This document shows, piece by piece, positions 886-64,000 of a stretch of 64,000 nucleotides of DNA. This DNA comes from Pseudomonas sp. Irchel s3f7 (GTDB lineage: Bacteria > Pseudomonadota > Gammaproteobacteria > Pseudomonadales > Pseudomonadaceae). Position 1 is the first letter of the stretch. Each line of letters opens with the position of its first letter. Location: the NCBI RefSeq assembly GCF_900187615.1, contig NZ_FYDO01000011.1, positions 1 through 64,000 of the forward strand, in the 5' to 3' direction. Below the pieces are notes generated by a model. The model worked only from the letters and a program-made list of their open reading frames with translations, did no database searches and was not told the origin of the DNA. Position numbers and translations under genes: made by a program.

Positions 886-2472
886 CTAGTGCCCGTGTCT
901 GATCATGTCAGCAGCCTTTTCGCCAATCATGATGCACACCGAGTTAGGGTTGCCTGAAATCAGCGTGGGCATGACCGATGCGTCGGCAACGCGCAGCCCT
1001 TCAATACCATGCACACGAAGATCCGGGCCTACGACCGAAAGCTCATCCACCCCGATGCGGCAGGTGCCGGAGGGGTGCAGCGCGGCGTGTGCTTCTTCGT
1101 GGCAGAATTTTTTCATCTCTTCCCGGGACCTGACCGCCCCGTCCGGCACATGACGCCTTGCAATGAACGGCTTGAAAGCGGCCTGGGACATGATTTGCTC
1201 ACCCACCAGACAACCGTCCACCAGGCTTTCAATATCGTATGGGTCAGAGAAATAGTTGGGCACGATCCGTGGAGGTGACATCGGGTCGGCTGAGTAGAGT
1301 TCTACATACCCTCTGGACCTTGGACGTATCTGCCCCAGGTTCAACGTGCACCCATTGCCCCCCGGAACAGAGTCAACCCCCTCTTCAATGCCGGCACCCA
1401 CCACCATGAAGTACTGGATATCCGGATGGGCTGCTGCCTTGTCGCCCCACCAGAAAGCCCCGCCTTCAATGAGGTTCGACGCCGCCGGGCCTTGCCTGAA
1501 CAACGCGTATTGCAAACCGGCCATCATTTTCCAAAGGGGCTTTTTGTACCTGTCGTAGCTATGCGGTCCCGTCAGCTCATACACCAGCGACACCTCGATA
1601 TGATCCTGGAGATTCTGGCCGACACCGGGCAAATCCTTGACCACGTTGATGCCATGCTTGGTTAGCTGTGCAGCCGGACCGATGCCGGACAGCATCAACA
1701 ATCGAGGCGAGTTGATGGCGCCGGACGATAAAATGATTTCCTTGTCGGCGTGCATCACGTGACGCACGCCCTTCTCGATGTATTCCACACCGATGGCTTT
1801 GTTGCCTTGGGTCAAGATGCGGATGACGCGACAACCCGTCTTCACCGTCAGGTTCTTGCGCGATTTGGCGGGTGCCAGGTAGGCCACAGCCGCACTGCTG
1901 CGAAAGCCGTTTTTGGCGGTGATCTGGTACAGACCGCAACCTTCAGGCGTACCCGAATTGAAATCCTCGTTGTACGGCAGGCCGTATTGCTGGCAGGCGC
2001 GCAACCAGACTTTGGTCAACGGATGGACATTGATCGGATCGGAAACCCCCAACGGCCCGCCAACGCCATGGGCGTCGTTGCAGAAGCGTTCGTTGTCTTC
2101 GGCTTTTTTGAAGTACGGCAGGACGTCTTTGTAAGACCAGCCGGTCGCACCCTGCTCGGCCCAGCCATCGTAGTCGGCCGGGACACCGCGGATGTAGATC
2201 ATGGCATTGACCGAGCTTCCGCCCCCCAGCACGCTGGCCTGAACCATCGTGGGCGTCTCGGTCCGGCGTTGATCTTCGGTAGGCTCCCACGCATAGCGTT
2301 TGAGCAGCGGGCCTTGCGCCGTTTTGTAGTAGGCGCCGGGAATGTGGATATAGGGGTTGCGATCGCGAGGTCCCTCTTCGAAAAGGACGACAGAGGCCGT
2401 AGCGTCTTCGCTCAGTCTTGAAGCCACGGTGCAACCTGTCGATCCACCTCCGATTACGATGAAATCCACCAT
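886..2472 (-). CDS. GMC family FAD-dependent oxidoreductase (choline dehydrogenase-like)
   Basis: The 528-residue protein is a full-length glucose-methanol-choline oxidoreductase, a family that oxidises alcohols with FAD. It opens with the dinucleotide-binding motif IVIGGGSTGCTVASRL, carries a GGGSSVNAMIYIRG stretch near residues 84-97, and ends with HPSGTCRIG and NPNSVCIMIGEKAA, which hold the catalytic His and Asn of the family. There is no signal peptide, so it is likely cytoplasmic. It is the last gene of a minus-strand run with the epimerase, GH3 and Gfo/Idh genes. A close paralogue lies decayed at 13616-14714. The exact alcohol substrate cannot be read from the sequence. Confidence 0.9.
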   Translation of the reverse strand: MVDFIVIGGGSTGCTVASRLSEDATASVVLFEEGPRDRNPYIHIPGAYYKTAQGPLLKRYAWEPTEDQRRTETPTMVQASVLGGGSSVNAMIYIRGVPADYDGWAEQGATGWSYKDVLPYFKKAEDNERFCNDAHGVGGPLGVSDPINVHPLTKVWLRACQQYGLPYNEDFNSGTPEGCGLYQITAKNGFRSSAAVAYLAPAKSRKNLTVKTGCRVIRILTQGNKAIGVEYIEKGVRHVMHADKEIILSSGAINSPRLLMLSGIGPAAQLTKHGINVVKDLPGVGQNLQDHIEVSLVYELTGPHSYDRYKKPLWKMMAGLQYALFRQGPAASNLIEGGAFWWGDKAAAHPDIQYFMVVGAGIEEGVDSVPGGNGCTLNLGQIRPRSRGYVELYSADPMSPPRIVPNYFSDPYDIESLVDGCLVGEQIMSQAAFKPFIARRHVPDGAVRSREEMKKFCHEEAHAALHPSGTCRIGVDELSVVGPDLRVHGIEGLRVADASVMPTLISGNPNSVCIMIGEKAADMIRHGH

Positions 2473-2616
2473 GACGACCTCAGTTTCTTTTTAGTGTTGA
2501 GAACAAGGCTGCCGAGCGATGGCAGCCCATAACCATTGCAAGCATTGACGTAACCCTGCACAAAAAAGCGCAGGACGGAATCAAACTTGAAAACGTGTGC
2601 TTGTTGAAGAAGCTGC

Positions 2617-3501
2617 TTATTGACCCACAAGCCGGGTCAAGAGTGACTTCAGCTCCTTGGCGACTTCGTAGCTGTTTTGCTGTTGCTGCTTCTTGCAAAA
2701 CAACTCGCAACTCCACCAGCCCTGGTAACCGGTGGCCTTCACCGCAGCCGTCCACTCGGCAAGGTTCAACACCCCACTTCCCGTCGGCACATCCCTGAGA
2801 ATTTCTTCGTTGGGGATACCCCCTTCAAACGGCAGCGAGTCACACACATGCACGCCGTAGATGAGGTCCTTGTTCATCCTGGCAATGTCTTGCGGCTGCA
2901 CGCCGGAGGTAAAGCAATGCCAGTAATCGATGACCATCCTGACGTTATCGCGCTCGGTGCGATCGATGAGCTGAAGTTGATGGTCCAGGCTGTTGAGCGG
3001 AGTCCAGGACAGCGCTTCGAGATAGAGAAGCACGTTGTACTGCTTCGCCAGATCAGCCAGCAAGGCGAGGTTTTTTGCGGTCAACACGTACTGTGTCGCT
3101 TCATCTGAACCCAGCAGACCCGAGTAAAAGGGGCTCTTGCCGTGCTGCTGGAAATCAATCACGGCCTGAACGTTGATGGGTCCGGTGAGCACCTGCACGC
3201 CTTTGGCGCCTGCCAGGTTGGCCAACTGGAAAAGTCGCTCGGCCTCCTTGAGCAAGTCATCGCGCTCAGCCCCCTGGCGCTCTATATCCCTCAGGTAACC
3301 AATGCCCGTGACCGGCACATCATTGAGCAGGTGTTTCAGTTCCGGTTCGCTATACCCCGCCTGCAGCCAGGCTTCCAGTTTTGCGCTGTTGATCTCCAGC
3401 GCATCGAAACCCACAGCCTTTGCGATGTCGATGTCCATCGCAAGGGTCGAGTGCTTTGCAACCGTGGAATGCAGGGCCAGGATATTGTTTTTAGTGTTCA
3501 T
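2617..3501 (-). CDS. Sugar phosphate isomerase/epimerase family TIM-barrel protein
   Basis: The 294-residue protein fits the xylose isomerase-like TIM-barrel family (AP endonuclease family 2; IolE/IolI and tagatose epimerase relatives), which isomerise or dehydrate sugars and inosose-type compounds using a divalent metal. Recognisable barrel segments include NVRMVIDYWHCF and GVHVCDSLPFEGG, which supply Asp/His-type metal ligands. The ATG is preceded by GGAG. It lies 144 bp upstream of the GMC gene in the same direction. A perfect TGACGCAGT inverted repeat stands 83 bp upstream of the start and is probably its operator. Confidence 0.8.
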   Translation of the reverse strand: MNTKNNILALHSTVAKHSTLAMDIDIAKAVGFDALEINSAKLEAWLQAGYSEPELKHLLNDVPVTGIGYLRDIERQGAERDDLLKEAERLFQLANLAGAKGVQVLTGPINVQAVIDFQQHGKSPFYSGLLGSDEATQYVLTAKNLALLADLAKQYNVLLYLEALSWTPLNSLDHQLQLIDRTERDNVRMVIDYWHCFTSGVQPQDIARMNKDLIYGVHVCDSLPFEGGIPNEEILRDVPTGSGVLNLAEWTAAVKATGYQGWWSCELFCKKQQQQNSYEVAKELKSLLTRLVGQ

Positions 3502-54425: not shown

Positions 54426-54571
54426 GCTGAGAAAGGAAGAGAATTATCAAACAGGATTGGTGCCAAAGGCAGCGCGAAAAAGGGCCAAAAACGGCGTGAA
54501 CTCACACTTTGTATCAGCCAAAGATTCCACCCAGAGCCAGTCGTTTTGTAGGGGTAAAAACGATAAAAAAT

Positions 54572-54607
54572 AAAAAAGGGTCGCGAGATAAAATCTCGCA
54601 ACCCTTT
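54572..54607 (-). terminator. Terminator of the original tRNA-Pro transcript
   Basis: On the minus strand AAAGGGTTGCGAGA, a short TTTTA loop and TCTCGCGACCCTTT form a long stem with one mismatch and end in a T-run. It lies 9 nt after the tRNA 3' end, as expected behind a tRNA gene. This marks the left flank as the original chromosome. Confidence 0.8.
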
Positions 54608-54615
54608 GAATTATA

Positions 54616-54660
54616 TGGTCGGGACGGAGTGATTCGAACACTCGACCCCTAGCACCCCAT
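54616..54660 (-). other. Island attachment site: 3' 45 nt of tRNA-Pro(GGG)
   Basis: The minus strand reads from ATGGGGTGCTAGGGG through the T-arm (GTGTTCGAATCAC) to the CCA end. This is the 3' part of a tRNA whose anticodon loop would be GGG (proline). The 5' half is absent: sequence changes right after the anticodon loop start. The integrase gene begins 160 bp away, so this is an att half-site duplicated on integration. The intact tRNA should be at the far (right) end of the island, outside the window. Confidence 0.85.
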
Positions 54661-54820
54661 CTCCTTTTTCATACTTCTTGAAAGACTCCGAAATTTCACT
54701 CTGGATTTTTCTAAGCTAGTATTTACTTGAGCTCCAGCGGTGTTCTGCTCTACGAGAGTCCAGTAACGTCCATCAAGAGCCGACGTTTTTGTGGGGGTAA
54801 AAGTAGGGGGAGTCCATTTT

Positions 54821-56275
54821 ATGGCCAAAATCACCATCAAAGAACTCGAGTCGCTGACCGCCAACGATGCCGGACGCATCCTCCGGGAAGATGGCAATCT
54901 CGCAGGTCGAATTTCCCTGCGTAAGGACGGCGTGTCGGTCAGCTTTTTCTATCGCTATCGGTGGGGCGACCAGAACAAAGAATACGCCTGCGGGTCTTGG
55001 CCACGCAAATCCCTGACGGACATCCGTAAGGCGCGTAACCAGGCCCGGGCACTCATTGATGAGCAGATCAATCCCAACGAGCACAAGAAAACCGCCAAGG
55101 CACAGGCTCATGCCGCGACGAACGCAAAAGCCGATCAGGAAAAATCGACGAAGGTCCAAACTCTGACCGTCCAGGATCTGGCCAAGGCCTGGCTGCTGGA
55201 TGGCGTCGCGCGTAAAGACGGCAATGCCGAGTTGCAACGGCGCCTTAACAAGGACCTTTTGCCAGCCCTCGGCAAGACCGCGGTGAACAATGTGTCCGAG
55301 CACGATATTCGGGCGCTGATCCGCACCGTGGTCAACCGCGGCGCTTACCGACAAGCCATCAGTTTTTTCGCCGACCTCACCCAGATGTTTAGTTGGGCCA
55401 GAAAGCGTCAGCCCTGGCGGGCCTTATTGATCGAGGGCGATCCGACTGAACTGGTCGACATCTCCCCCCTGATCCCTGCCGACTACGAAGCGGAACGAAG
55501 CCGCATCCTTTCGCCGGCGGAGCTGTTGGAACTGCACAACCGCTTCCAGCAAATGACCGCCGATTACAGCGCCCTCCCCGCCGGGCAAAAGTACGAAGGC
55601 ATTCGGCCATTGAAAAAAGAAACCCAACTCGCGCTCTGGATCAGCCTGGGCACCCTGTGTCGGATTGGCGAGTTGCTGCAGGCCGAATGGAAAAATGTCG
55701 ATCTGGACCAGCAGACCTGGTTCCTCCCCAGTGAAAACGTCAAAGGCACCCGCGGCAAGAAACAGGACCACCATGTTTTCCTCTCCCCCTTCGCCCTGCA
55801 TTTCTTTCAGGAACTCAAGACCCTGACAGGACATTCACAGTGGTGCTTTCCCAACAAGCAGGATGATGGGCATGTGGACGTGAAAGTGGTGAGCAAGCAG
55901 GTGGGCGACCGCCAGGCCCGGTTTAAAAACCGCAAAGCCCTTTCAAGACGGCGCCATGACGATACGCTGGTGCTAGCCGACGGCCAGAACGGTGACTGGA
56001 CGCCGCATGACCTGCGCCGCACCGGCGCGACCATGATGCAGGCCTTGGGCGTTAGCTTGGATGTTATCGATCGCTGTCAAAACCATGTGCTGGCTGGCTC
56101 CCGGGTGAGACGCCACTATCTGCATCACGATTATGCCGAAGAGAAGAAGCTCGCCTGGAACCTGTTGGGCGATCGACTCAGTGCCGTTCTTTCCTCAACC
56201 TACGAGCACCCACCGATCGTGTCGATGATGTCTTTTCCAGCGTGTACCGCGACCGGATCCCTACCGCCTTCATAA
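54821..56275 (+). CDS. Tyrosine-type site-specific integrase of the genomic island
   Basis: The 484-residue protein has an N-terminal arm-binding/DUF4102-like domain, a core-binding domain (about residues 120-210) and a catalytic domain with Arg in LGTLCRIGELLQAEW, the HxLRR box in PHDLRRTGATMM and the Tyr nucleophile near RRHYLHHDY. All are intact, so it may be active. The ATG at 54821 follows GGGGGAG at 8 nt. An upstream start lacks a good site. Its att half-site is the tRNA-Pro fragment beside it. Confidence 0.9.
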   Translation: MAKITIKELESLTANDAGRILREDGNLAGRISLRKDGVSVSFFYRYRWGDQNKEYACGSWPRKSLTDIRKARNQARALIDEQINPNEHKKTAKAQAHAATNAKADQEKSTKVQTLTVQDLAKAWLLDGVARKDGNAELQRRLNKDLLPALGKTAVNNVSEHDIRALIRTVVNRGAYRQAISFFADLTQMFSWARKRQPWRALLIEGDPTELVDISPLIPADYEAERSRILSPAELLELHNRFQQMTADYSALPAGQKYEGIRPLKKETQLALWISLGTLCRIGELLQAEWKNVDLDQQTWFLPSENVKGTRGKKQDHHVFLSPFALHFFQELKTLTGHSQWCFPNKQDDGHVDVKVVSKQVGDRQARFKNRKALSRRRHDDTLVLADGQNGDWTPHDLRRTGATMMQALGVSLDVIDRCQNHVLAGSRVRRHYLHHDYAEEKKLAWNLLGDRLSAVLSSTYEHPPIVSMMSFPACTATGSLPPS

Positions 56276-56988: not shown

Positions 56989-57149
56989 GTCAAGGCACCG
57001 GGCCACGATCATTCTCAAGTTCCATACGCCGCTGCTGAAAGACTTTGGTCTTATGCAACCCATATATAGATGGCACATAGCTATCCAAGTGAGTAGCATC
57101 GACGCCAGCTTGATGTTCGTCAATTGAGATGCAGAACAAGGAAGTCATC

Positions 57150-58160
57150 ATGTCCCAAGCGAAAGACACGCTACTCAGGCTATTCGCATTATTGCGCCTG
57201 ATCCCCACCGAGCCGCAGCGTATTGCAACACCTACCCTGCTCGAAAAGCTTCGAGAACGGGGCTTTTCCGTGACCCTGCGTTCAATTCAGCGCGACTTGA
57301 ACCGGTTGTCGATCCCCTTCTCGTTACAGTGCAACGACAGCGAGGTTCCTTTCCGCTGGAGCTTCACCCGTGATGCGCCATTGAAGCTGGAAGACATGGA
57401 TGCCTCCACGGCATTGGCGCTGTATCTCTCGGAAAGTCATTTGAACAACCTGCTGCCCCAGACTGTTTTGGCCCAGCTAGGTCCACAGTTCAGACGAGCG
57501 CGTAATTTCCTTGGTGATCTCGGCCACAACGGATTGGCCGATTGGGCGCGACGGGTTCGAGCGATCCCCAACGGAAAAACCTTACTGCCTGCTGCGATTG
57601 CTCCCGAGGTGTGGGCGCAGGTGTCTGCTGCCTTACTGGAGCGAAGGCAACTGGAGGTTTCCTATCGGAGCCGAAGCAAAAGCGAACTCAAGCAGTTTCG
57701 CTTGCATCCCGCCGGTTTGGTATCGCGGCATGCCATCAGCTACTTGCTGGCATCCGTGGATGGCTATGACGACCTGCGTCAATTCGCGCTGCATCGTATC
57801 CAGCATATGCACGTGCTCGACGAACCCGCGGTGCTGCACGCTGGCTTCGATGTCGACGATTACATCGCGAGTGGCATATTCAGCCATCGCCAGACCGACA
57901 CCCAGGTGGAGTTGGTTGCGGATGTTCATCCGCAGATTGCCTTCCTCCTCGACGAGACACCACTGAGTCACAGACAGACGCTCAGCGATATTCCTTCCAA
58001 CACCTGGAAACGCCTGCACGCGTGGGTACCACTGGATCGCGAAACGCTGTGGTGGATCTTCGGCTTGAACGACAACATTCGTGTCCATGCCCCGCAGGTC
58101 TGGGTCGAGGAAATCCGTCAACGAGTGAGCGCGATGCTGACGCTCTATCGGGAGGCCTAG
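57150..58160 (+). CDS. WYL-domain transcriptional regulator
   Basis: The 336-residue protein has an N-terminal winged HTH (LLRLFALLRLIPTEPQRIAT, LRERGFSVTLRSIQRDLNRL) and a WYL-type Sm-fold ligand domain (about residues 165-240; LEVSYRSRSKSELKQFRLHP, where I-S-Y stands for the W-Y-L triad), then a WCX-like C-terminal extension. AAGGA lies before the ATG. WYL repressors such as BrxR and CapW control many anti-phage systems. This one directly precedes the WXG100/FtsK operon and likely regulates it. Confidence 0.82.
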   Translation: MSQAKDTLLRLFALLRLIPTEPQRIATPTLLEKLRERGFSVTLRSIQRDLNRLSIPFSLQCNDSEVPFRWSFTRDAPLKLEDMDASTALALYLSESHLNNLLPQTVLAQLGPQFRRARNFLGDLGHNGLADWARRVRAIPNGKTLLPAAIAPEVWAQVSAALLERRQLEVSYRSRSKSELKQFRLHPAGLVSRHAISYLLASVDGYDDLRQFALHRIQHMHVLDEPAVLHAGFDVDDYIASGIFSHRQTDTQVELVADVHPQIAFLLDETPLSHRQTLSDIPSNTWKRLHAWVPLDRETLWWIFGLNDNIRVHAPQVWVEEIRQRVSAMLTLYREA

Positions 58161-58345
58161 TTGACCCGCATTGGACACCATCGTTGCTCATCCGATAACG
58201 CTTCAAGGATTACACCTGAGCAATCCCCATGGATAAGCCTCGGGAAATCCTGCCGTTACTTGTTTCTCTGGGTGCCTGGCAGTGAACAACGTGGCGGCAT
58301 GGCGACCAGCCAACCCATTTCATTAATTCTCAAGGAGTCTTGTCT

Positions 58346-59083
58346 ATGAGCAACACCCCATTCGATCCGTCGAAATTCACGGTACCGAAAGCCAAACCGG
58401 TGCCGGTAATTCTGTTGCTCGATATCAGCGGCAGCATGGAGAGCGAAGGAAAAATCCACAGCTTGAATGATGCTGTACGCGATATGCTCAATGTGTTCCA
58501 GGACACAGAGAGCGGTGAGACTGAAATCTGGGTTTCGATCATCACTTTCGGTGCACAAGTCGAGCTGCATCAGCCGCTGATCAGTGCTGGCGACATCCGT
58601 TGGCAGGACCTTTCAGCGGGTGGGATGACGCCGCTCGGTGTCGCCCTCAAGATGGCGAAAGCGATGATTGAGGATAAGGATGTCGTGCCATCACGCGCCT
58701 ATCGCCCCACGGTTGTGTTGGTCTCCGATGGGCAGCCGAGCGACGATTGGGAAGGCCCGTTGAATGCGTTCGTCAACGATGGACGCTCCGCAAAATGCGA
58801 CCGCATGGCGATGGCCATCGGTGCCGGTGCAGACGAGGCTGTACTCGGAAAATTCATTGAAGGTACTGCGAACGGTCTCTTCTACTCCGAGAACGCTAAA
58901 CAGCTACGGGATTTCTTCAAGTTCGTCACCATGTCGGTGACCATTCGCACAAAGTCACAGACGCCGAATATCCTGCCTGATGCGAGCGTCATTGATATCC
59001 AGCCAGCCACGATCGACGCTCGGCAGGAGCATGTAAAATCGGTGACACCGAAATCCTCGGATGAAGATGGAGGATATTGGTAA
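58346..59083 (+). CDS. VWA-domain protein (TerY-like)
   Basis: The 245-residue protein is essentially one von Willebrand A domain. The MIDAS metal site is complete in outline: LLLDISGSM (DxSxS), GGMTPLGVAL (Thr) and VLVSDGQPSDDW (Asp). It resembles TerY-type VWA proteins of bacterial conflict systems. AAGGAG lies 8-9 nt before the ATG. Its stop overlaps the next start (TAATG). It may act as a metal-dependent adaptor in the assembly of the complex encoded downstream. Confidence 0.82.
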   Translation: MSNTPFDPSKFTVPKAKPVPVILLLDISGSMESEGKIHSLNDAVRDMLNVFQDTESGETEIWVSIITFGAQVELHQPLISAGDIRWQDLSAGGMTPLGVALKMAKAMIEDKDVVPSRAYRPTVVLVSDGQPSDDWEGPLNAFVNDGRSAKCDRMAMAIGAGADEAVLGKFIEGTANGLFYSENAKQLRDFFKFVTMSVTIRTKSQTPNILPDASVIDIQPATIDARQEHVKSVTPKSSDEDGGYW

Positions 59084-59352
59084 TGGCACAGGCAATCGCA
59101 GACCCGGACGAACTCGAGCGCTTTGCGTATTCGTTGCAACAGTTCACTGATTCACTCAACGATGCCGTCAGCAGCCTTAACGGTGCATTCGCTTCGCTCG
59201 GTGACACTTGGCAGGACGATAAACGAGCGCAGTTTGAAGAAGAGTACAACGCGCTCCTCCAGCAGCTGCATCAGTTCGATGCCAACGTGACAGAGCAGGT
59301 TCCGTACTTGAACGCACTTGCCTCACGCCTGCGCGATTACTTGCAAAGCTAG
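59083..59352 (+). CDS. WXG100-like small helical protein
   Basis: The 89-residue protein is all-helical, of the length of ESAT-6/WXG100 proteins, with the central turn at residues 39-51 as LGDTWQDDKRAQF. Trp and the downstream Phe are kept, and the Gly of WxG is Asp. WXG100 proteins are secreted as helical hairpin dimers by type VII (ESX) machines. It is translationally coupled to the VWA gene and followed at 16 bp by the coiled-coil gene. Confidence 0.75.
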   Translation: MAQAIADPDELERFAYSLQQFTDSLNDAVSSLNGAFASLGDTWQDDKRAQFEEEYNALLQQLHQFDANVTEQVPYLNALASRLRDYLQS

Positions 59353-59368
59353 GGGCGCGGGAGTCGCA

Positions 59369-60679
59369 ATGGCACAGGTTTCAATTGGACAAGTGGAGAA
59401 TCTGGAAGACCTCGTGCGCGGATTGCAGTCCGTACTCGAGGTACTGGAATCCTCATGCCGCGAACAGATCGCTTTTGCGGAACAGAAATCCGAAGAAGCT
59501 CGCGACGAAACACAGAACAGCGAGAGCTTGTTGGACAGTGCCACCCGGCAAGAGCAGGCAGTGCAGCAAGAAGTTGATGACGCTCAGGAGGCGTTGGCCA
59601 GCAGTCAAAGTGCGCTCGATTCCGCCCAATATTCGCTGTCGGCCTGCCTTTCTCAACCGAGTGATGATGATGAAACTCATCCCGACTGCTCCGATGAGTA
59701 CGCTTGCGTTGCTGACTTCGAAGCCGATGTCGAGCAGGCTCAAGGCATGCTGGAACAAGCAAAAGCAGATTTCGAGCTAGCCACGGAAAATCGTCAAGCG
59801 ATGGAACAGCGCCTGGAACTCGCGAGACAGGCGCAAGCGATGGCGGAACAAACGCTGGTACAGGCTCAACAGGAATGCAATGCACGGCTGGCATCTGTCG
59901 GCCGGGCTGTTGAAGTTGGCACTGCTCGGTTGACTGCCGCACAACAGGCACTGAATGCATACCTGGCGACGAATCCGTCCGCTGGACAGTTTCATGCCTG
60001 GCTGAAATGGGACCCCACTCAACAGGGCGGCCCCATCACACCGGACATATTGCGAGACCGGATGAACCTGTCGTCAGAACATCAACGGATGCTTCAGGAC
60101 TATCTATACGACCGCAACCCTGGGTATCGGAAACTGGTTGACCGCTATCGCGGCCAATGGGCAGACGCGAAGGGCGACGCCGAGCGCAACATCGTCGCAC
60201 GCAAGGCTCGTATACATCTGAGTGGTGAATTTGGGGAGCAAATAGCGCGGCACGCACTTGCACCTCTGGGCGGACGAATCGAGACACAAGGTCGCACGTT
60301 CGTTGGCGACGATGGACGCTACACAAAAACAGATCTACTGATAACCGACTTACGAGTCCCGATCATTTTGGGACGTGGCGAGGGCATGGGAGCTCCTGTG
60401 GGAGGCTCGATGGCGTTCGAGGTGAAATGCGGGAAGGCGCAGTACCTCTATTCGCAGATGGATCACATGGTTTTCCAGTCCCAAGGACACAAGCAGGCGG
60501 ATGCGCAATGCACGCTTTGCTCGCGAGATATCCAGGACCTTTCACCAGAGAAGCAGAAAGAATTGCGCGATACCTTGCGCGAAGCAGGTTCGCCGATGGT
60601 GGGAATGTTGCCCAGTAAGAACGAAATAGATAAGTCCTGCCTTGATTTCATCCGCCCAAACGAGGAGGAGCAGCCATGA
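59369..60679 (+). CDS. Coiled-coil protein with C-terminal PD-(D/E)XK-like domain
   Basis: Of the 436 residues, 1-95 and 115-200 form long alanine/glutamine-rich coiled coils split by a Cys/Asp-rich loop (about 98-113). Residues about 280-436 are globular: GEFGEQIARHALAPLGG (helix with Glu), Asp322 in RYTKTDLLI and EVK at 351-353, the order expected of a PD-(D/E)XK nuclease fold. A CxxC (CTLC) follows. The N-terminus resembles long WXG/LXG-type substrates. It could be a nuclease effector of the adjacent secretion-like machine, or a nuclease component of a defence complex. GGGAG lies before the ATG. Confidence 0.65.
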   Translation: MAQVSIGQVENLEDLVRGLQSVLEVLESSCREQIAFAEQKSEEARDETQNSESLLDSATRQEQAVQQEVDDAQEALASSQSALDSAQYSLSACLSQPSDDDETHPDCSDEYACVADFEADVEQAQGMLEQAKADFELATENRQAMEQRLELARQAQAMAEQTLVQAQQECNARLASVGRAVEVGTARLTAAQQALNAYLATNPSAGQFHAWLKWDPTQQGGPITPDILRDRMNLSSEHQRMLQDYLYDRNPGYRKLVDRYRGQWADAKGDAERNIVARKARIHLSGEFGEQIARHALAPLGGRIETQGRTFVGDDGRYTKTDLLITDLRVPIILGRGEGMGAPVGGSMAFEVKCGKAQYLYSQMDHMVFQSQGHKQADAQCTLCSRDIQDLSPEKQKELRDTLREAGSPMVGMLPSKNEIDKSCLDFIRPNEEEQP

Positions 60680-61017
60680 AAGTGCGATACGCAATTATCA
60701 GTCCAGACACTCTCGCCCAAGTCCGGACGGAGATTGAAAGACTTCAACAAGCGGTCAACGCCGGGGATATGGACGGCGTGGATGCGGCCACGGCGCAATT
60801 ATTGGAATTGACGGCGCACTGTCAGTCGATCGATTTGTCCGAGGAAGATTGGCGAGCGTTTCTGACTCGAGTCAGGAGCATGAATCCTGAGTTTAAATCC
60901 AACTATCTATTGCCAGGCGAAGTTTGCGCCTCGATTTTTCCTTCCATCACCGCTGACGACTCTGTACTCGAGCTTCCTATTGATGGTGATACGGCGGAGG
61001 AAGAGATCGATGTTTGA
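60676..61017 (+). CDS. Hypothetical acidic protein of the WXG100/FtsK operon
   Basis: Not recognised. The 113-residue protein has an N-terminal helix pair (SPDTLAQVRTEIERLQQAVN) and an acidic C-terminal tail (DGDTAEEEIDV). It overlaps both neighbours (ATGA at the start, 8 bp at the end), so it is part of the operon. It could be a chaperone or an immunity protein to the nuclease-like protein, by position only. Confidence 0.65.
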   Translation: MKVRYAIISPDTLAQVRTEIERLQQAVNAGDMDGVDAATAQLLELTAHCQSIDLSEEDWRAFLTRVRSMNPEFKSNYLLPGEVCASIFPSITADDSVLELPIDGDTAEEEIDV

Positions 61018-61240
61018 CGATGTTTTTGGAATGGCGATTTTGTGCGCCGAAAACTTTCGCGAAGCAGCACACGATTCATTTGGTCTTTCCATTTCCACCG
61101 AGGTGCTCGAGCCGATTCTCAAGGAAATCGATTCGCTGCGCATTTTCAATGAGGAATTCCAGCGCCAGGCACTCAATCTTGATAAGACCCTGGAGAGCGC
61201 GCGACTCATCCAGAGCACAAATCCTGGGAATGAAAAATGA
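61010..61240 (+). CDS. Small hypothetical helical protein of the WXG100/FtsK operon
   Basis: Not recognised. The 76-residue acidic protein has two helices (VFGMAILCAENFREAAHDSF and VLEPILKEIDSLRIFNEEFQ). GGAGGAA lies about 9 nt before the ATG. Its stop overlaps the start of the ATPase gene (ATGA). The size and coupling resemble accessory or substrate-like proteins of ESX loci. Confidence 0.6.
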   Translation: MFDDVFGMAILCAENFREAAHDSFGLSISTEVLEPILKEIDSLRIFNEEFQRQALNLDKTLESARLIQSTNPGNEK

Positions 61241-64000
61241 ATGGAACTCAGCGATTGTCCAAAACTACGATGACCGCGATAAATAAAGCTGTCGCTGATT
61301 ATCAAGAGGGTCTGGCGCGCATTGACCGCGAGTTCGATGCCCTCTCCCACCGGATAGAACAATCGATTCTGGACTTGTCTGGCGATGCAGCGAACCATCG
61401 AAGCAAATTGAACGAAGAGGCAATGCAGCACCTCGCGTACGAAAGCAAGCAAGCGAGCGGCAACCGGGAAAAGAGGACATTGAATTGGCAATCGACCTTC
61501 GCTCGAGAATGGGAAAAAATCGCCGCTGAAACCGGACGTTGGGGTTTTCAGCTTCGCCGACAACAGCCCGCGTTTGTGGATTTCGGGCCAAATTGCCCTT
61601 TGATGGCATCGGATATTCCGACACATCTATCGTTTGGTTCGCATCGAGTTGCCTTTGAGGAACTCTCCTGCGTTGTCCCGCACACCCCTACATTCCCCCT
61701 CGCACGCGCCCTTGTCCTATCGGAGGACAACGCAGCACACAAGCACTTGATACATCAACTCCTGTTACGGTTACTGTCAGCCCTGCCGCCGGGCCGGTTG
61801 GAGTTAACGCTCATTGACCCTCTGCAATTGGGACAATCGATCGGACCGTTTCTGCCGCTTCTGAAAGTGCCGCAATTGGTGCCGCAACAACGCGTGCTGA
61901 CTCGCGCAGACGAAATCGAAGCAGCCCTTGGCAAACTGCAAGACGAGGTCGAGGAGCTGATTCAACATCGGTTCACCGACCAGTCACCCAACTGGTTAGA
62001 GTACAACGCGCACAACGTCGACAATCCCCTGCGTTACAAGGTCGTATTGCTTTTTGACGCTCCAGAACAACTTTCGGACAAGAGCCTCTGGTTCCTTGAG
62101 CGGCTCTGCGTGAACGGTCCACGCTGCGGTGTACTGCCCATCCTCGCGATTGACGGGCATCGCATGGAAGACCGGCGATATGAAAAATTTCGCACCACGC
62201 TGGAAACATCGACCATGGGCACTGACGCACTGTTGCGTGGTGCTGACTACGGATGCAACGGGCTGTCGTTGACCTACCAGCCAGAACAATGGCTCGCGCA
62301 AGACTTTTTGGCCGGATTCATCTCCACGGTTGCCGAGCATTACGCCGCGACGGCACGCTTGCGCAAATCAATGCCTGACCTCTGGACGAATTTCGGGAAA
62401 GGCGCGACCACCCGCAGCGGCTTCAGTATTCCAATCGGATGGACGTCCGTCGGTGAGCAGGTGCCACTGATCCTGGGTGCAACGACCTCCGAGCATCACG
62501 CACTGCTTGCAGGTAAAACGGGCTCTGGCAAGTCCAACCTGCTCCATGTGCTGATTCAAACGCTGTGCGAGAAATACTCGCCGGCAGAAGTTGATCTCTA
62601 CTTGCTGGATTACAAAGAATCTACGGAATTCAATATCTATGCAGACCCACCACTTCCTCACGCCCGTTTGGTCGCCACGGAAAGCGATCCCGAATACGGC
62701 GTAACGGTGCTGAGGCATCTCGTGGATGAGCTGGAAGAACGAGCGCGTATTTTCAAGAAAGCGGAAGTTCGTGATTTTGCTGAATACCGCGCGGCGAGCA
62801 GCGAGCGACTACCACGGATTCTTTTGGTCGTAGATGAGTTCCAGGTTCTCTTTGCAGGGCAGCGCCAGGTCGCAGAGGCGGCAGAACAACTGCTCTCACA
62901 GTTGTTAAAACAGGGCCGCTCATTCGGTATCCACATCCTGCTTGCGACGCAAACCCTGAAAGGCATTAATGCACTGTCAATCGCAAGCATAATTACCCAA
63001 CTGGGATGCCGTATCGCGCTGGCGTGCGGTCAGGAAGATTCCGCGATGATCCTCGGTGCAAACAACTGGGCGGCGGCTGAACTCAAGAGCCCTCCCGAGG
63101 GCATCATCAATAATGCCAACGGTGCGAAATCCGGCAATGTAAAGCTGCTGATTCCACTGGCAGAAAACACACTCTGCCGCGAACACATTGCAACATTGGC
63201 GGGATATGCGACACAGCATGGCATGGCCGGCAAGACGCGAATTTTCAGCGGAGCCAATCTGCCGCAGTTGCCTTCATCCAGTGAATATCAAACGATTTGC
63301 GGACAAGACGACACCCTGCTTTTAGGTGAGCGGCTGACATTCGATGCCCAAAGGCTGACGATCCCGCTCACCCGACGCTCAGCGTTCAATGTCCTGTTCA
63401 GCGGCTACAACGACCAAATTCACGACGGGTTGTTGGCCGCTACGCTTTGCAGCATTACGTTCCAAGACAGCTTCGATGAGATTGTCTATTTCAATGGGCG
63501 TGGTGTTGCACCAGGCGGTGGATTTTCCGCCGCAGCGCAGGCGCTCGGCGCACGTCTAAAGATGTTTGACGACATTGCCGCGCTACCACTGCAGGCGATA
63601 GCCGACGGTATCGGGACGCGCCGCGTCGCGTTGATCATCGATGGTCTCGACGCCGAGAAAGCACTTCATCCGTCATCCGCATTCAGAGCCCCCAAACCTG
63701 GTGACCCCCCTTCACCCGCTGACCTGCTGAAGCGCCTGGCTGAAGAAGGACCACGCAAGGGGATATTCGTATTTGCATTCGTTGACCGTTGGCAACGCTG
63801 CGCTGGTGCTTGCAAGGATCTCTTCGCATCTTTCGAGTTACGCGTGGCGTATTGCATGAACGAGGACGATGGGGGATCACTCGTGAGTGGTGGTATTGGC
63901 AAGTTCAAAGGCATCGAAAAGCCAAATCGCGCCGTTTTCGTCAACAGAATGACAAACGAAATCGCATGGTTCCGGCCCTACATTCAAAAGAACTCTCAAT
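61237..64000 (+). CDS. EssC/FtsK-like multi-domain ATPase (runs past the window)
   Basis: The frame is open from the ATG at 61237 to the window end (921 codons, no stop). Residues 1-120 are helical. About 150-390 resemble an FtsK/SpoIIIE domain without a P-loop. About 400-640 are a canonical domain with Walker A AGKTGSGKSNLLH (Lys432), LLDYKES and Walker B ILLVVDEFQVLF (Asp533, Glu534), then LLATQTLKG. From about 690 a third, degenerate domain starts (FNVLFSGYND). Tandem FtsK domains with one active are the hallmark of EssC/EccC, the motor of type VII secretion. No membrane segment is evident so far. Translation is coupled to the preceding gene. Confidence 0.82.
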   Translation, partial: MNGTQRLSKTTMTAINKAVADYQEGLARIDREFDALSHRIEQSILDLSGDAANHRSKLNEEAMQHLAYESKQASGNREKRTLNWQSTFAREWEKIAAETGRWGFQLRRQQPAFVDFGPNCPLMASDIPTHLSFGSHRVAFEELSCVVPHTPTFPLARALVLSEDNAAHKHLIHQLLLRLLSALPPGRLELTLIDPLQLGQSIGPFLPLLKVPQLVPQQRVLTRADEIEAALGKLQDEVEELIQHRFTDQSPNWLEYNAHNVDNPLRYKVVLLFDAPEQLSDKSLWFLERLCVNGPRCGVLPILAIDGHRMEDRRYEKFRTTLETSTMGTDALLRGADYGCNGLSLTYQPEQWLAQDFLAGFISTVAEHYAATARLRKSMPDLWTNFGKGATTRSGFSIPIGWTSVGEQVPLILGATTSEHHALLAGKTGSGKSNLLHVLIQTLCEKYSPAEVDLYLLDYKESTEFNIYADPPLPHARLVATESDPEYGVTVLRHLVDELEERARIFKKAEVRDFAEYRAASSERLPRILLVVDEFQVLFAGQRQVAEAAEQLLSQLLKQGRSFGIHILLATQTLKGINALSIASIITQLGCRIALACGQEDSAMILGANNWAAAELKSPPEGIINNANGAKSGNVKLLIPLAENTLCREHIATLAGYATQHGMAGKTRIFSGANLPQLPSSSEYQTICGQDDTLLLGERLTFDAQRLTIPLTRRSAFNVLFSGYNDQIHDGLLAATLCSITFQDSFDEIVYFNGRGVAPGGGFSAAAQALGARLKMFDDIAALPLQAIADGIGTRRVALIIDGLDAEKALHPSSAFRAPKPGDPPSPADLLKRLAEEGPRKGIFVFAFVDRWQRCAGACKDLFASFELRVAYCMNEDDGGSLVSGGIGKFKGIEKPNRAVFVNRMTNEIAWFRPYIQKNSQ

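Follow-up and report, generated by a model that had tools for sequence, protein, structure and literature searches.

The closest described counterpart of the locus analyzed here is the Type III-A CoCoNuT with an EssC-type extension, which has been published as a prediction (Bell et al. 2024, eLife RP94800, PMC11090510). According to the accessible text of that paper, the layout comprises an EssC-like ATPase, two WXG100 proteins, a coiled coil joined to D-ExK and a small protein resembling a DNA mimic between two VWA genes, and further a 2xCARF-D-ExK protein, TerY-P and the CoCoNuT core; the EssC homologue is described there as having no transmembrane helices and a single active ATPase domain. 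Two older papers, in their accessible parts, report related gene sets. A footnote in PMC3482391 (2012) mentions mobile, type VII secretion system (T7SS)-like WXG/ATPase sets in which only the middle ATPase domain is active, and PMC4978471 (2016) places WXG100 proteins, FtsK and HNH or LHH nucleases in or beside the TerY-P clusters of Helicobacter pylori islands. We analyzed the first 64 kb (64,000 nucleotides, the window) of a 180,848-bp contig of Pseudomonas sp. Irchel s3f7 (NZ_FYDO01000011.1), together with the DNA to its right. The operon at the right end of the window almost certainly forms the 5' extension of a Type III-A CoCoNuT, a defence operon carried here by a tRNA-Pro integrative island, because its gene order, domains and motifs fit the EssC-type extended layout of Bell et al. 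That layout was already known as a prediction. What our comparison of relatives suggests in addition is an effector slot with an exchangeable nuclease, at times paired with an immunity gene.

The genes stand in the following order, with the evidence for each in brackets.

57129-58160, plus strand: WYL-domain regulator (Pfam WYL 4.8e-15, WCX 9e-6)
58346-59083, plus strand: VWA1, TerY-like, with MIDAS-type residues (DISGS, T, D) recognized by eye (Pfam VWA_2 7.7e-11)
59083-59352, plus strand: WXG100-like protein with WxD, not WxG; its start overlaps the VWA1 stop codon (Pfam WXG100 7.1e-8)
59369-60679, plus strand: effector ('ccn'), predicted hairpin and D-ExK nuclease-like domain (AlphaFold2 model, invariant residues)
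60676-61017, plus strand: sm1, small acidic alpha/beta protein in the candidate immunity slot (isoelectric point, pI, 4.1)
61010-61240, plus strand: sm2, small conserved protein preceding the ATPase (profile, 52 loci)
61237-64002, plus strand: soluble EccC/EssC-like ATPase of 921 residues (Pfam FtsK_SpoIIIE 4.2e-32)
63999-65792: CARF-D-ExK protein directly behind the ATPase (PADLOC CARF_PDDEXK 1.2e-275, Pfam Card1_endonuc 1.7e-9)
65789-66259: VWA2 (weak Pfam match, 0.032)
66256-66975: PP2C (Pfam PP2C_2 8.7e-46)
66968-68311: kinase with zinc ribbon (Pfam Pkinase 1.3e-8; C-terminal CxxC...CxxC by eye)
68308-71766: CnuH, a superfamily 1 helicase (Pfam AAA_12 2.5e-35; IGHMBP2-family 1e-38, below cut-off)
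71760-73715: CnuE, 651 residues (HEPN motifs RxxxxH at 415 and RxH at 620)
73719-76274: CnuB, coiled coil and GTPase (GVSGTGKS at 449, NQDE at 587; coiled-coil-like N-terminus by eye)
76210-79638: CnuC/CD, a DUF2357 protein (DUF2357 1.3e-4, cold-shock domain 0.027, both weak and below the Pfam cut-offs)

The Pfam scan of the window used the frames as first listed, some of them with an upstream TTG start, and comparison with Caballeronia genes indicated likely ATG starts at 58346, 59083, 59369 and 61010. All genes that an initial annotation of the window had named between 57150 and 64000 were found, the WYL, VWA1, WXG100-like and ATPase genes by the Pfam matches given and the effector by its model and residues. 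Extending the sequence rightward, as that annotation had proposed, placed the ATPase stop codon at 64002, 2 nucleotides past the window, with eight further operon genes up to 79638. The hint of anti-phage defence is supported by the CoCoNuT context. The statement that the operon matched no nameable system was not supported, and we rejected its novelty as a stand-alone system because Bell et al. had already described the layout: the window holds an instance of a published prediction. The system is thus named and predicted, but neither a characterization nor any experiment on the EssC-type extended Type III-A CoCoNuT was found in the literature searched.

The likeness to the described system covers both ends of the operon. 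The TerY-P triad (VWA, PP2C and kinase with zinc ribbon) is accompanied by a second VWA gene at the 5' end, and between the VWA genes lie a soluble EssC homologue with one active domain, a WXG100-like protein, the coiled-coil D-ExK protein with a small acidic protein behind it, and the CARF-D-ExK protein; sm2 as a WXG100 protein and a second CARF domain are putative. CnuH, in the described system a UPF1-like helicase, is followed by a protein with both HEPN motifs, of which RxxxxH retains its H in 34 of 34 aligned rows and its R in 28, while R and H of RxH are each kept in 30 of 34. CnuB, described as an McrB-like GTPase with an NxD motif and a long coiled coil, gave no Pfam GTPase match; it contains GVSGTGKS and NQDE. 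The latter, a shortened NxD motif, also occurs in the CnuB of three other loci (L011, L012 and L053; L numbers denote loci) and was not found in L031, L035 and L052, where the retrieved frames are shorter and probably truncated at the edge of the locus. For CnuC, DUF2357, cold-shock, Hsp70-like and HEAT parts are described; here Pfam gave no Hsp70 or HEAT match in CnuC/CD at E 0.1. On these sequence features we accept membership in Type III-A CoCoNuT, with reservation regarding the weak DUF2357 and cold-shock matches and the undetected Hsp70-like part. Unlike the described layout, the operon has the motif WxD, and the WYL regulator and tRNA-Pro island are local features; in the accessible text of Bell et al., WYL occurs only within a reference title. 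The CARF-D-ExK gene right behind the ATPase is reminiscent of Can1, Can2 and Card1, the CARF nucleases of Type III CRISPR, whereas here the gene lies between the ATPase and VWA2 genes and no CRISPR gene was found among the island proteins scanned.

The effector was modeled with AlphaFold2 from a 23-row alignment. The model (mean predicted local distance difference test, pLDDT, 91.1) places helices 6-94 and 108-201, about 90 residues each, in a hairpin, followed by a helical linker and a mixed alpha/beta domain (about 301-428) that contains Asp322, Glu351 and Lys353. All 26 aligned rows have the same residue at these three positions (D322, E351 and K353), which upholds the nuclease-like partner of the initial annotation. 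The protein had no Pfam match above cut-off, and a Foldseek search for the nuclease fold gave no match at E 0.001 (PspGI, 3bm3, matched weakly, with probability 0.75 and E 0.04). Matches found by VIA cover only the hairpin (residues 1-204) and include many unrelated long hairpins. Because neither search gave a clear nuclease match, the nuclease was assigned from the D-ExK residues and the order of the strands, and we describe the effector as a predicted long helical hairpin with a D-ExK nuclease-like domain.

Among relatives, the effector profile reached the C-terminus in most cases; in several it matched the N-terminal ~200 residues only. The latter keep the hairpin and carry other C-termini: a WHH/colicin-type or LHH nuclease, a uracil-DNA-glycosylase (UDG)-like domain in modules whose genes are ordered differently, or one domain of no known family. 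In Campylobacter sp. US33a (L059) the effector matched the Pfam families Colicin-DNase (9.2e-21) and WHH (1.5e-15) and is followed by a SUKH-type gene (SMI1_KNR4 1.1e-5), both standing before sm2, ATPase, VWA2, PP2C, kinase and helicase genes. L134 has an LHH domain (9.1e-23) and then a SUKH_5 gene (1.6e-10) in the same setting. Both loci lie inside VWA/PP2C/kinase/CnuH operons with the gene order of the window. The stand-alone Helicobacter modules, which have no TerY-P triad, carry WHH and SUKH in the same position (L065: WHH 9.4e-12, SMI1_KNR4 2.2e-8); the D-ExK hairpin profile gave weak or no matches to their hairpins, and equivalence there is by position. Two of these loci, L065 (6982-7995 and 8673-9677) and likewise L073, contain two effector genes with different hairpins and nearly the same WHH C-terminus, and one SUKH gene lies between the two effector genes; this points to copying of cassettes.

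The clearest exchange was seen between a Spirochaeta metagenome-assembled genome (MAG; L036), which has the conserved hairpin in a VWA/TerY-P setting, and Escherichia coli ET734 (L012). Their ATPases are 92%, WXG proteins 98% and sm2 proteins 87% identical, and the effectors share 73% identity over residues 1-197 and no similarity beyond. At the DNA level, 83% identity ends at about position 2751 of L036 and resumes at 87% at 3457. In ET734, the replaced 1.06 kb (L012 21358-22419) corresponds to the D-ExK domain and nearly all of sm1. Since both are replaced between stretches of 83% and 87% identical DNA, the nuclease domain and sm1 appear to have been swapped as one cassette. The C-terminal part of the L036 effector gene (2162-3397) gave no Pfam match above cut-off and no PHROGs match, and its product is a candidate new warhead.

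The effector counts are drawn from the best 80 of 121 relatives, giving 79 loci, or 71 after removal of 8 duplicates. Of these, 56 were labeled (36 D-ExK, 15 WHH, three UDG, one LHH and one of no known family) and 15 were not, two of which (L047 and L138) represent the same Comamonas place. Labeling used a profile together with patterns devised once the sequences had been read, and Pfam confirmed representatives only. The counts include five WHH loci whose ATPase has in-frame stops (L130, L132, L133, L135 and L136), two loci with a split ATPase (L071 and L073) and one D-ExK locus (L048) in which the effector is broken into two frames. Distant EssC-like loci (L014-L016 and L077-L098), some with HExxH-type effectors, were excluded from all effector counts. 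Proteins with HExxH motifs adjoin more distant EssC-like modules (L066 12662-13879, L077 13084-13848; AHESAH and VHEIGH), suggesting metallopeptidase warheads in the wider family.

An immunity-type gene directly behind the effector is evident for WHH and LHH, is no more than a candidate for D-ExK and is not evident for UDG. A SUKH-type gene was found in 16 of 16 WHH loci before de-duplication and in the single LHH locus, and sm1, the candidate counterpart, in 27 of 36 D-ExK loci and in none of the 20 loci with another effector. The SUKH profile, which was built from five Helicobacter proteins themselves among the 16 WHH loci, gave exactly one match in each of these 16 and matched no other locus; the LHH neighbor is SUKH by Pfam only. 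The arrangement by which polymorphic toxins are recognized, a constant N-terminus with exchangeable C-terminal toxin domains, was found with D-ExK, WHH, LHH and one unassigned domain in the same position. The hairpin/nuclease gene is therefore likely to be a polymorphic-toxin slot whose warhead can be exchanged. Neither the exchangeable C-terminus nor the SUKH-bearing relatives appear in the accessible account of Bell et al. The accessible parts of PMC3482391 and PMC4978471 share with our locus, respectively, a WXG protein and an ATPase with one active domain, there in Proteobacteria and other phyla, and an FtsK accompanied by an HNH/EndoVII nuclease, a WXG100 protein accompanied by a DnaK homologue and, in the inferred ancestral TerY-P cluster, an LHH nuclease; unlike here, the nuclease is not treated in them as an exchangeable toxin with an immunity partner. 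We found no such treatment in the literature searched, which covered titles, abstract starts and few subscription papers.

With regard to the mode of action, we consider it an even prospect, judging from the gene content, that the module is a cytosolic, DNA-attacking effector arm of CoCoNuT. In the likely logic of the module, the hairpin would dock on the WXG100-like partner and the ATPase and serve as a handle for the motor, and the C-terminal warhead would attack nucleic acid, mostly DNA; those warheads of the close family that were identified belong to DNA-directed families, with PF12639 described as DNase/tRNase. The small protein behind it (sm1 here, SUKH in relatives) would restrain the warhead and may be an inhibitor in some lineages. 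Infection might be sensed through CARF ligands and a TerY-P phosphorylation switch, upon which the ATPase, remaining cytosolic and exporting nothing, would pull on the hairpin or strip the inhibitor and so release the nuclease to attack DNA of the phage or the host; RNA and DNA would also be targets of CnuH/CnuE and the CARF nuclease. The absence of an evident immunity gene from several loci is easier to reconcile with a conditional effector acting inside the cell than with a weapon directed at kin. More broadly, and more tentatively, a secretion-family motor and its WXG100 partners may have been turned inward to form a soluble, infection-triggered toxin-release device with swappable DNA-attacking warheads that derive from interbacterial toxins, partly with immunity genes. 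If the slot is polymorphic, the function of the module could be tested by simple toxin/immunity assays, and interbacterial toxins and anti-phage restriction would be joined in one operon.

Several observations weigh against these interpretations. The sample of relatives is limited, and the one clean swap involves a MAG contig, for which a chimaeric assembly is possible. When the effector label was mapped on the ATPase tree, only 5 changes were needed over 49 labeled rows, with a minimum of 4 for five states; this is slow for an arms-race toxin, and the small number of changes indicates that the exchange is real but slow. The tree contained 53 rows, 26 having been dropped as duplicate, partial, broken or distant, and its long branches meet, L052, L058, L059, L060, L065 and L134 among them. 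The three UDG loci show no evident immunity gene and no TerY-P triad, and since their effector lies behind, not before, the ATPase, we do not regard them as occupying the same position. The physical link between ATPase and effector is putative, and SUKH proteins paired with WHH or LHH domains are best known from secreted polymorphic toxins, a pairing that fits export to rivals equally. As for the UDG loci themselves, the UDG-like C-terminus was identified in L062 (1.1e-9), in L058 (0.0014, below cut-off) and by eye in L144; L062 and L144 have VWA1-like genes only, and the contig of L058 is short. The unusual warhead of these effectors (L058 4116-5180, L062 8605-9693, L144 10286-11374) could target modified or uracil-containing DNA.

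The evidence on sm1 is also divided. It is missing from 9 of the 36 D-ExK loci, and the four of these that were inspected (L048, L052, L142 and L143, the last a duplicate of L053) show no gene in its place. The sm1 model (pLDDT 82.6) is a small alpha/beta protein with a low-confidence acidic tail and had no match in the Protein Data Bank at E 0.001. The best VIA match (Z 4.8) was to a designed protein; identification by structure was given up and nothing was concluded from it. Bell et al., in the accessible text, note that the protein in this place is similar to HU-binding DNA mimics. The acidity of sm1 and its absence from some D-ExK loci would agree with a DNA mimic aimed at HU or at a phage factor and not with a nuclease inhibitor, its replacement in L036 then being incidental. 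We regard this as doubtful, although compatible with the other readings, since sm1 accompanies no other warhead, was lost together with the nuclease domain in L036 and has its position occupied by SUKH genes in WHH and LHH loci. The initial annotation had counted two small acidic proteins: this holds for sm1, but sm2 is less acidic (pI 5.4 in the longer, TTG-start form). sm2, which had no NCBIfam or PHROGs match, is perhaps the second WXG100-like protein, the one without the motif, of Bell et al.

The ATPase profile was compared with solved chains and matched 4nh0 (3.7e-50), YukB (9qks, 2.4e-37) and EccC5 (7np7, 2.1e-33) ahead of FtsK; 4nh0 was deposited as FtsK/SpoIIIE and we take it to be an EccC. 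NCBIfam EccCa (5.2e-30) and EssC (6.3e-27) also matched, both below their cut-offs. The ATPase had been called a tandem FtsK/EssC-like protein, and three stretches of its profile do match 4nh0, but it has only one Walker A motif, at about residues 426-433. Exactly one Walker A was found in 55 of 56 ATPases of at least 780 residues, duplicates included, in line with the accessible account of Bell et al.

A DNA-pumping restriction device, in which the FtsK-like hexamer would translocate DNA into an attached nuclease in the manner of SspH or HerA-nuclease pairs and the WXG100-like proteins would be assembly factors, draws on the PADLOC matches to SspH (3.3e-26) and mad8 (2.4e-22) over the motor domain and on the DNA enzymes among the close-family warheads. 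We consider it unlikely, given that the best profile matches among solved chains are 4nh0, YukB and EccC5, ahead of FtsK, and that C-terminal exchange with immunity genes is a habit of toxins. To our knowledge, HerA partners are not built with exchangeable C-termini and immunity genes.

A reduced type VII-like apparatus, in which an unknown or borrowed channel would let the ATPase export the WXG100-like protein together with the nuclease, against neighbors or as defence, is suggested by the membership of the ATPase in the EccC/EssC family by profile and of its partner in the WXG100 family. The hairpin-fused effectors of relatives, with exchangeable C-termini and SUKH genes, further recall the architecture of LXG toxins (PMC9600955, accessible part). 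PMC3482391, in its accessible part, calls such sets mobile versions of T7SS, and Bell et al. likewise think secretion likely, through a different mechanism.

Other findings make secretion doubtful. By simple hydropathy, the window module contains no membrane segment (strongest hydrophobic 19-mer 1.63), and a 19-mer of at least 1.8 was found in relatives in none of 63 WXG proteins, none of 63 sm2 proteins, 1 of 63 ATPases, 1 of 50 effectors and 1 of 32 sm1 proteins. By this measure the ATPase lacks the membrane anchor of the EccC/EssC ATPases of T7SS. No EccB/D/E or EssA/EssB/EsaA was found among the Pfam matches of the 18 island proteins scanned (CnuE against NCBIfam only, the helicase for its top 25 families), the rest of the genome not having been searched. 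All 66 matches to the WXG100-like protein (E < 1e-20, duplicates included) have WxD and none WxG. A C-terminal YxxxD/E is the export signal on WXG100 proteins, and none of the 66 has it in the last 30 residues, no positive control having been run; the pattern is present in 9 of 67 sm2 matches. In addition, the Gram-negative host has an outer membrane, and no immunity gene is evident in the UDG forms and in some of the D-ExK forms. On balance we consider export unlikely, yet it stays a live rival because WHH and LHH toxins guarded by SUKH proteins are known elsewhere from secreted systems.

The proposed cytosolic arm would thus be built from T7SS-type parts, and we do not count it as a T7SS. 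The ATPase family, the WXG100-like protein, the hairpin-fused effector with exchangeable C-terminus and, in relatives, the immunity gene are shared with type VII secretion, whereas the missing anchor, membrane components and YxxxD/E, the Gram-negative host and the embedding in a CoCoNuT operon set it apart. Of the earlier description as type VII-like, the parts were supported and the membership was not. There is indirect support for the contact-dependent toxin that it had named as an alternative, since the nuclease slot of relatives holds polymorphic-toxin domains accompanied by immunity genes. The locus is relevant to the question of whether, in the absence of membrane machinery, WXG100 proteins undergo any secretion.

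The module was found in few of the genomes searched. Within the genus, the ATPase was matched over most of its length in 3 of 298 genomes, our own included, and two more had motor-domain matches only (~1e-15); a wide distribution in the genus was rejected on this count. In the family, 2 of 99 genomes, again with our own among them, contained the effector. Among 72,556 plasmid records, one matched the ATPase at a coverage of at least 80%. In wider draws (ATPase profile at E 1e-60, counts including the center genome), two genomes passed in the class (369 searched) and two in the phylum (398 searched), in both cases our own and the same partial match. Draws around relatives gave 11 of 248 genomes in the order of a Campylobacter relative, 10 of 397 in a Lachnospiraceae family draw (four near full length) and 3 of 81 in a Fibrobacter family draw (two near full length). 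A phage origin was rejected: none of 76 pattern matches in viral contigs was a confirmed relative, and the phage collection yielded one unannotated record that aligned with 55% of the ATPase at 27.8% identity.

In E. coli, 4 of 5,426 genomes match the window DNA in part, and only ET734 matches its own WXG-effector-sm1-sm2 stretch. In this strain (L012 3312-42024) a BREX cluster precedes the CoCoNuT, and a sigma-54 regulator of the RtcR type separates the two; the BREX cluster carries IS1X2 and IS3 insertions, and its brxC, pglX and pglZ are incomplete. Its CnuB frame has 688 residues, as compared with 851 in the window operon, and is followed by a separate 175-residue frame; the core may not be intact. 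ET734 offers an extension for comparison, with this reservation about its CnuB.

The gene upstream of VWA1 varies among loci, and WYL was rejected as a fixed part of the system. The profile of the WYL gene matched only the window and P. veronii (L033) among the loci searched, and another WYL-domain gene stands upstream in L021; elsewhere the position is taken by RtcR (L012 and L044), an NE0113-type CARF gene (L045) or a protein resembling a type III restriction subunit (L025, near copies by eye). In the stand-alone Helicobacter modules an Hsp70-like gene (by eye, VAIDFGTKST) lies upstream of WXG (L065 3547-6027, L070 4553-7213, L013 6215-8101) and is perhaps related to the Hsp70-like part of CnuCD; the L065 protein had no Pfam match. 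In the order of L059, five of the 11 matching genomes (G858, G925, G986, G845 and G936) have in-frame stops in the ATPase gene, all three kinds occurring between them, and others are intact. Bell et al., in the accessible text, propose a non-standard code for Helicobacter CoCoNuTs; for the stops observed here, simple decay seems more likely.

A natural deletion of the extension was observed in Comamonas testosteroni (L047 9968-11251, L138 8283-9566), where the ATPase is reduced to its C-terminal 427 residues and VWA1, WXG, effector, sm1 and sm2 were not found in front, while CARF, VWA2, PP2C, kinase and helicase are kept.

The island that carries the operon is about 33 kb in size and is bounded by a tRNA-Pro repeat and an intact tRNA-Pro(ggg) gene.

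54507-54660: left attachment repeat, duplicating the 3' part of tRNA-Pro(ggg) together with the DNA that follows (blastn)
54791-56275, plus strand: tyrosine integrase of the island (Pfam Phage_integrase 1.2e-15, Arm-DNA-bind_3 7.9e-10)
contig 87351-87427, minus strand: intact tRNA-Pro(ggg), right end of the island

By blastn, the left repeat is identical in 148 of 154 bases to its partner at contig positions 87242-87395, and the integrase gene adjoins it. The tRNA island recognized in the initial annotation is therefore a mobile tRNA-Pro island, but ARAGORN found no tRNA gene within the 64-kb window, the intact copy lying to its right. The same island also carries, to the right of the window, a three-gene convergent operon on the minus strand (contig 80324-86429) that encodes an SNF2-type helicase, a PLD protein and a third protein, matching the PADLOC candidate system PDC-M27 C/B/A with 1497.7, 825 and 632.9 bits.

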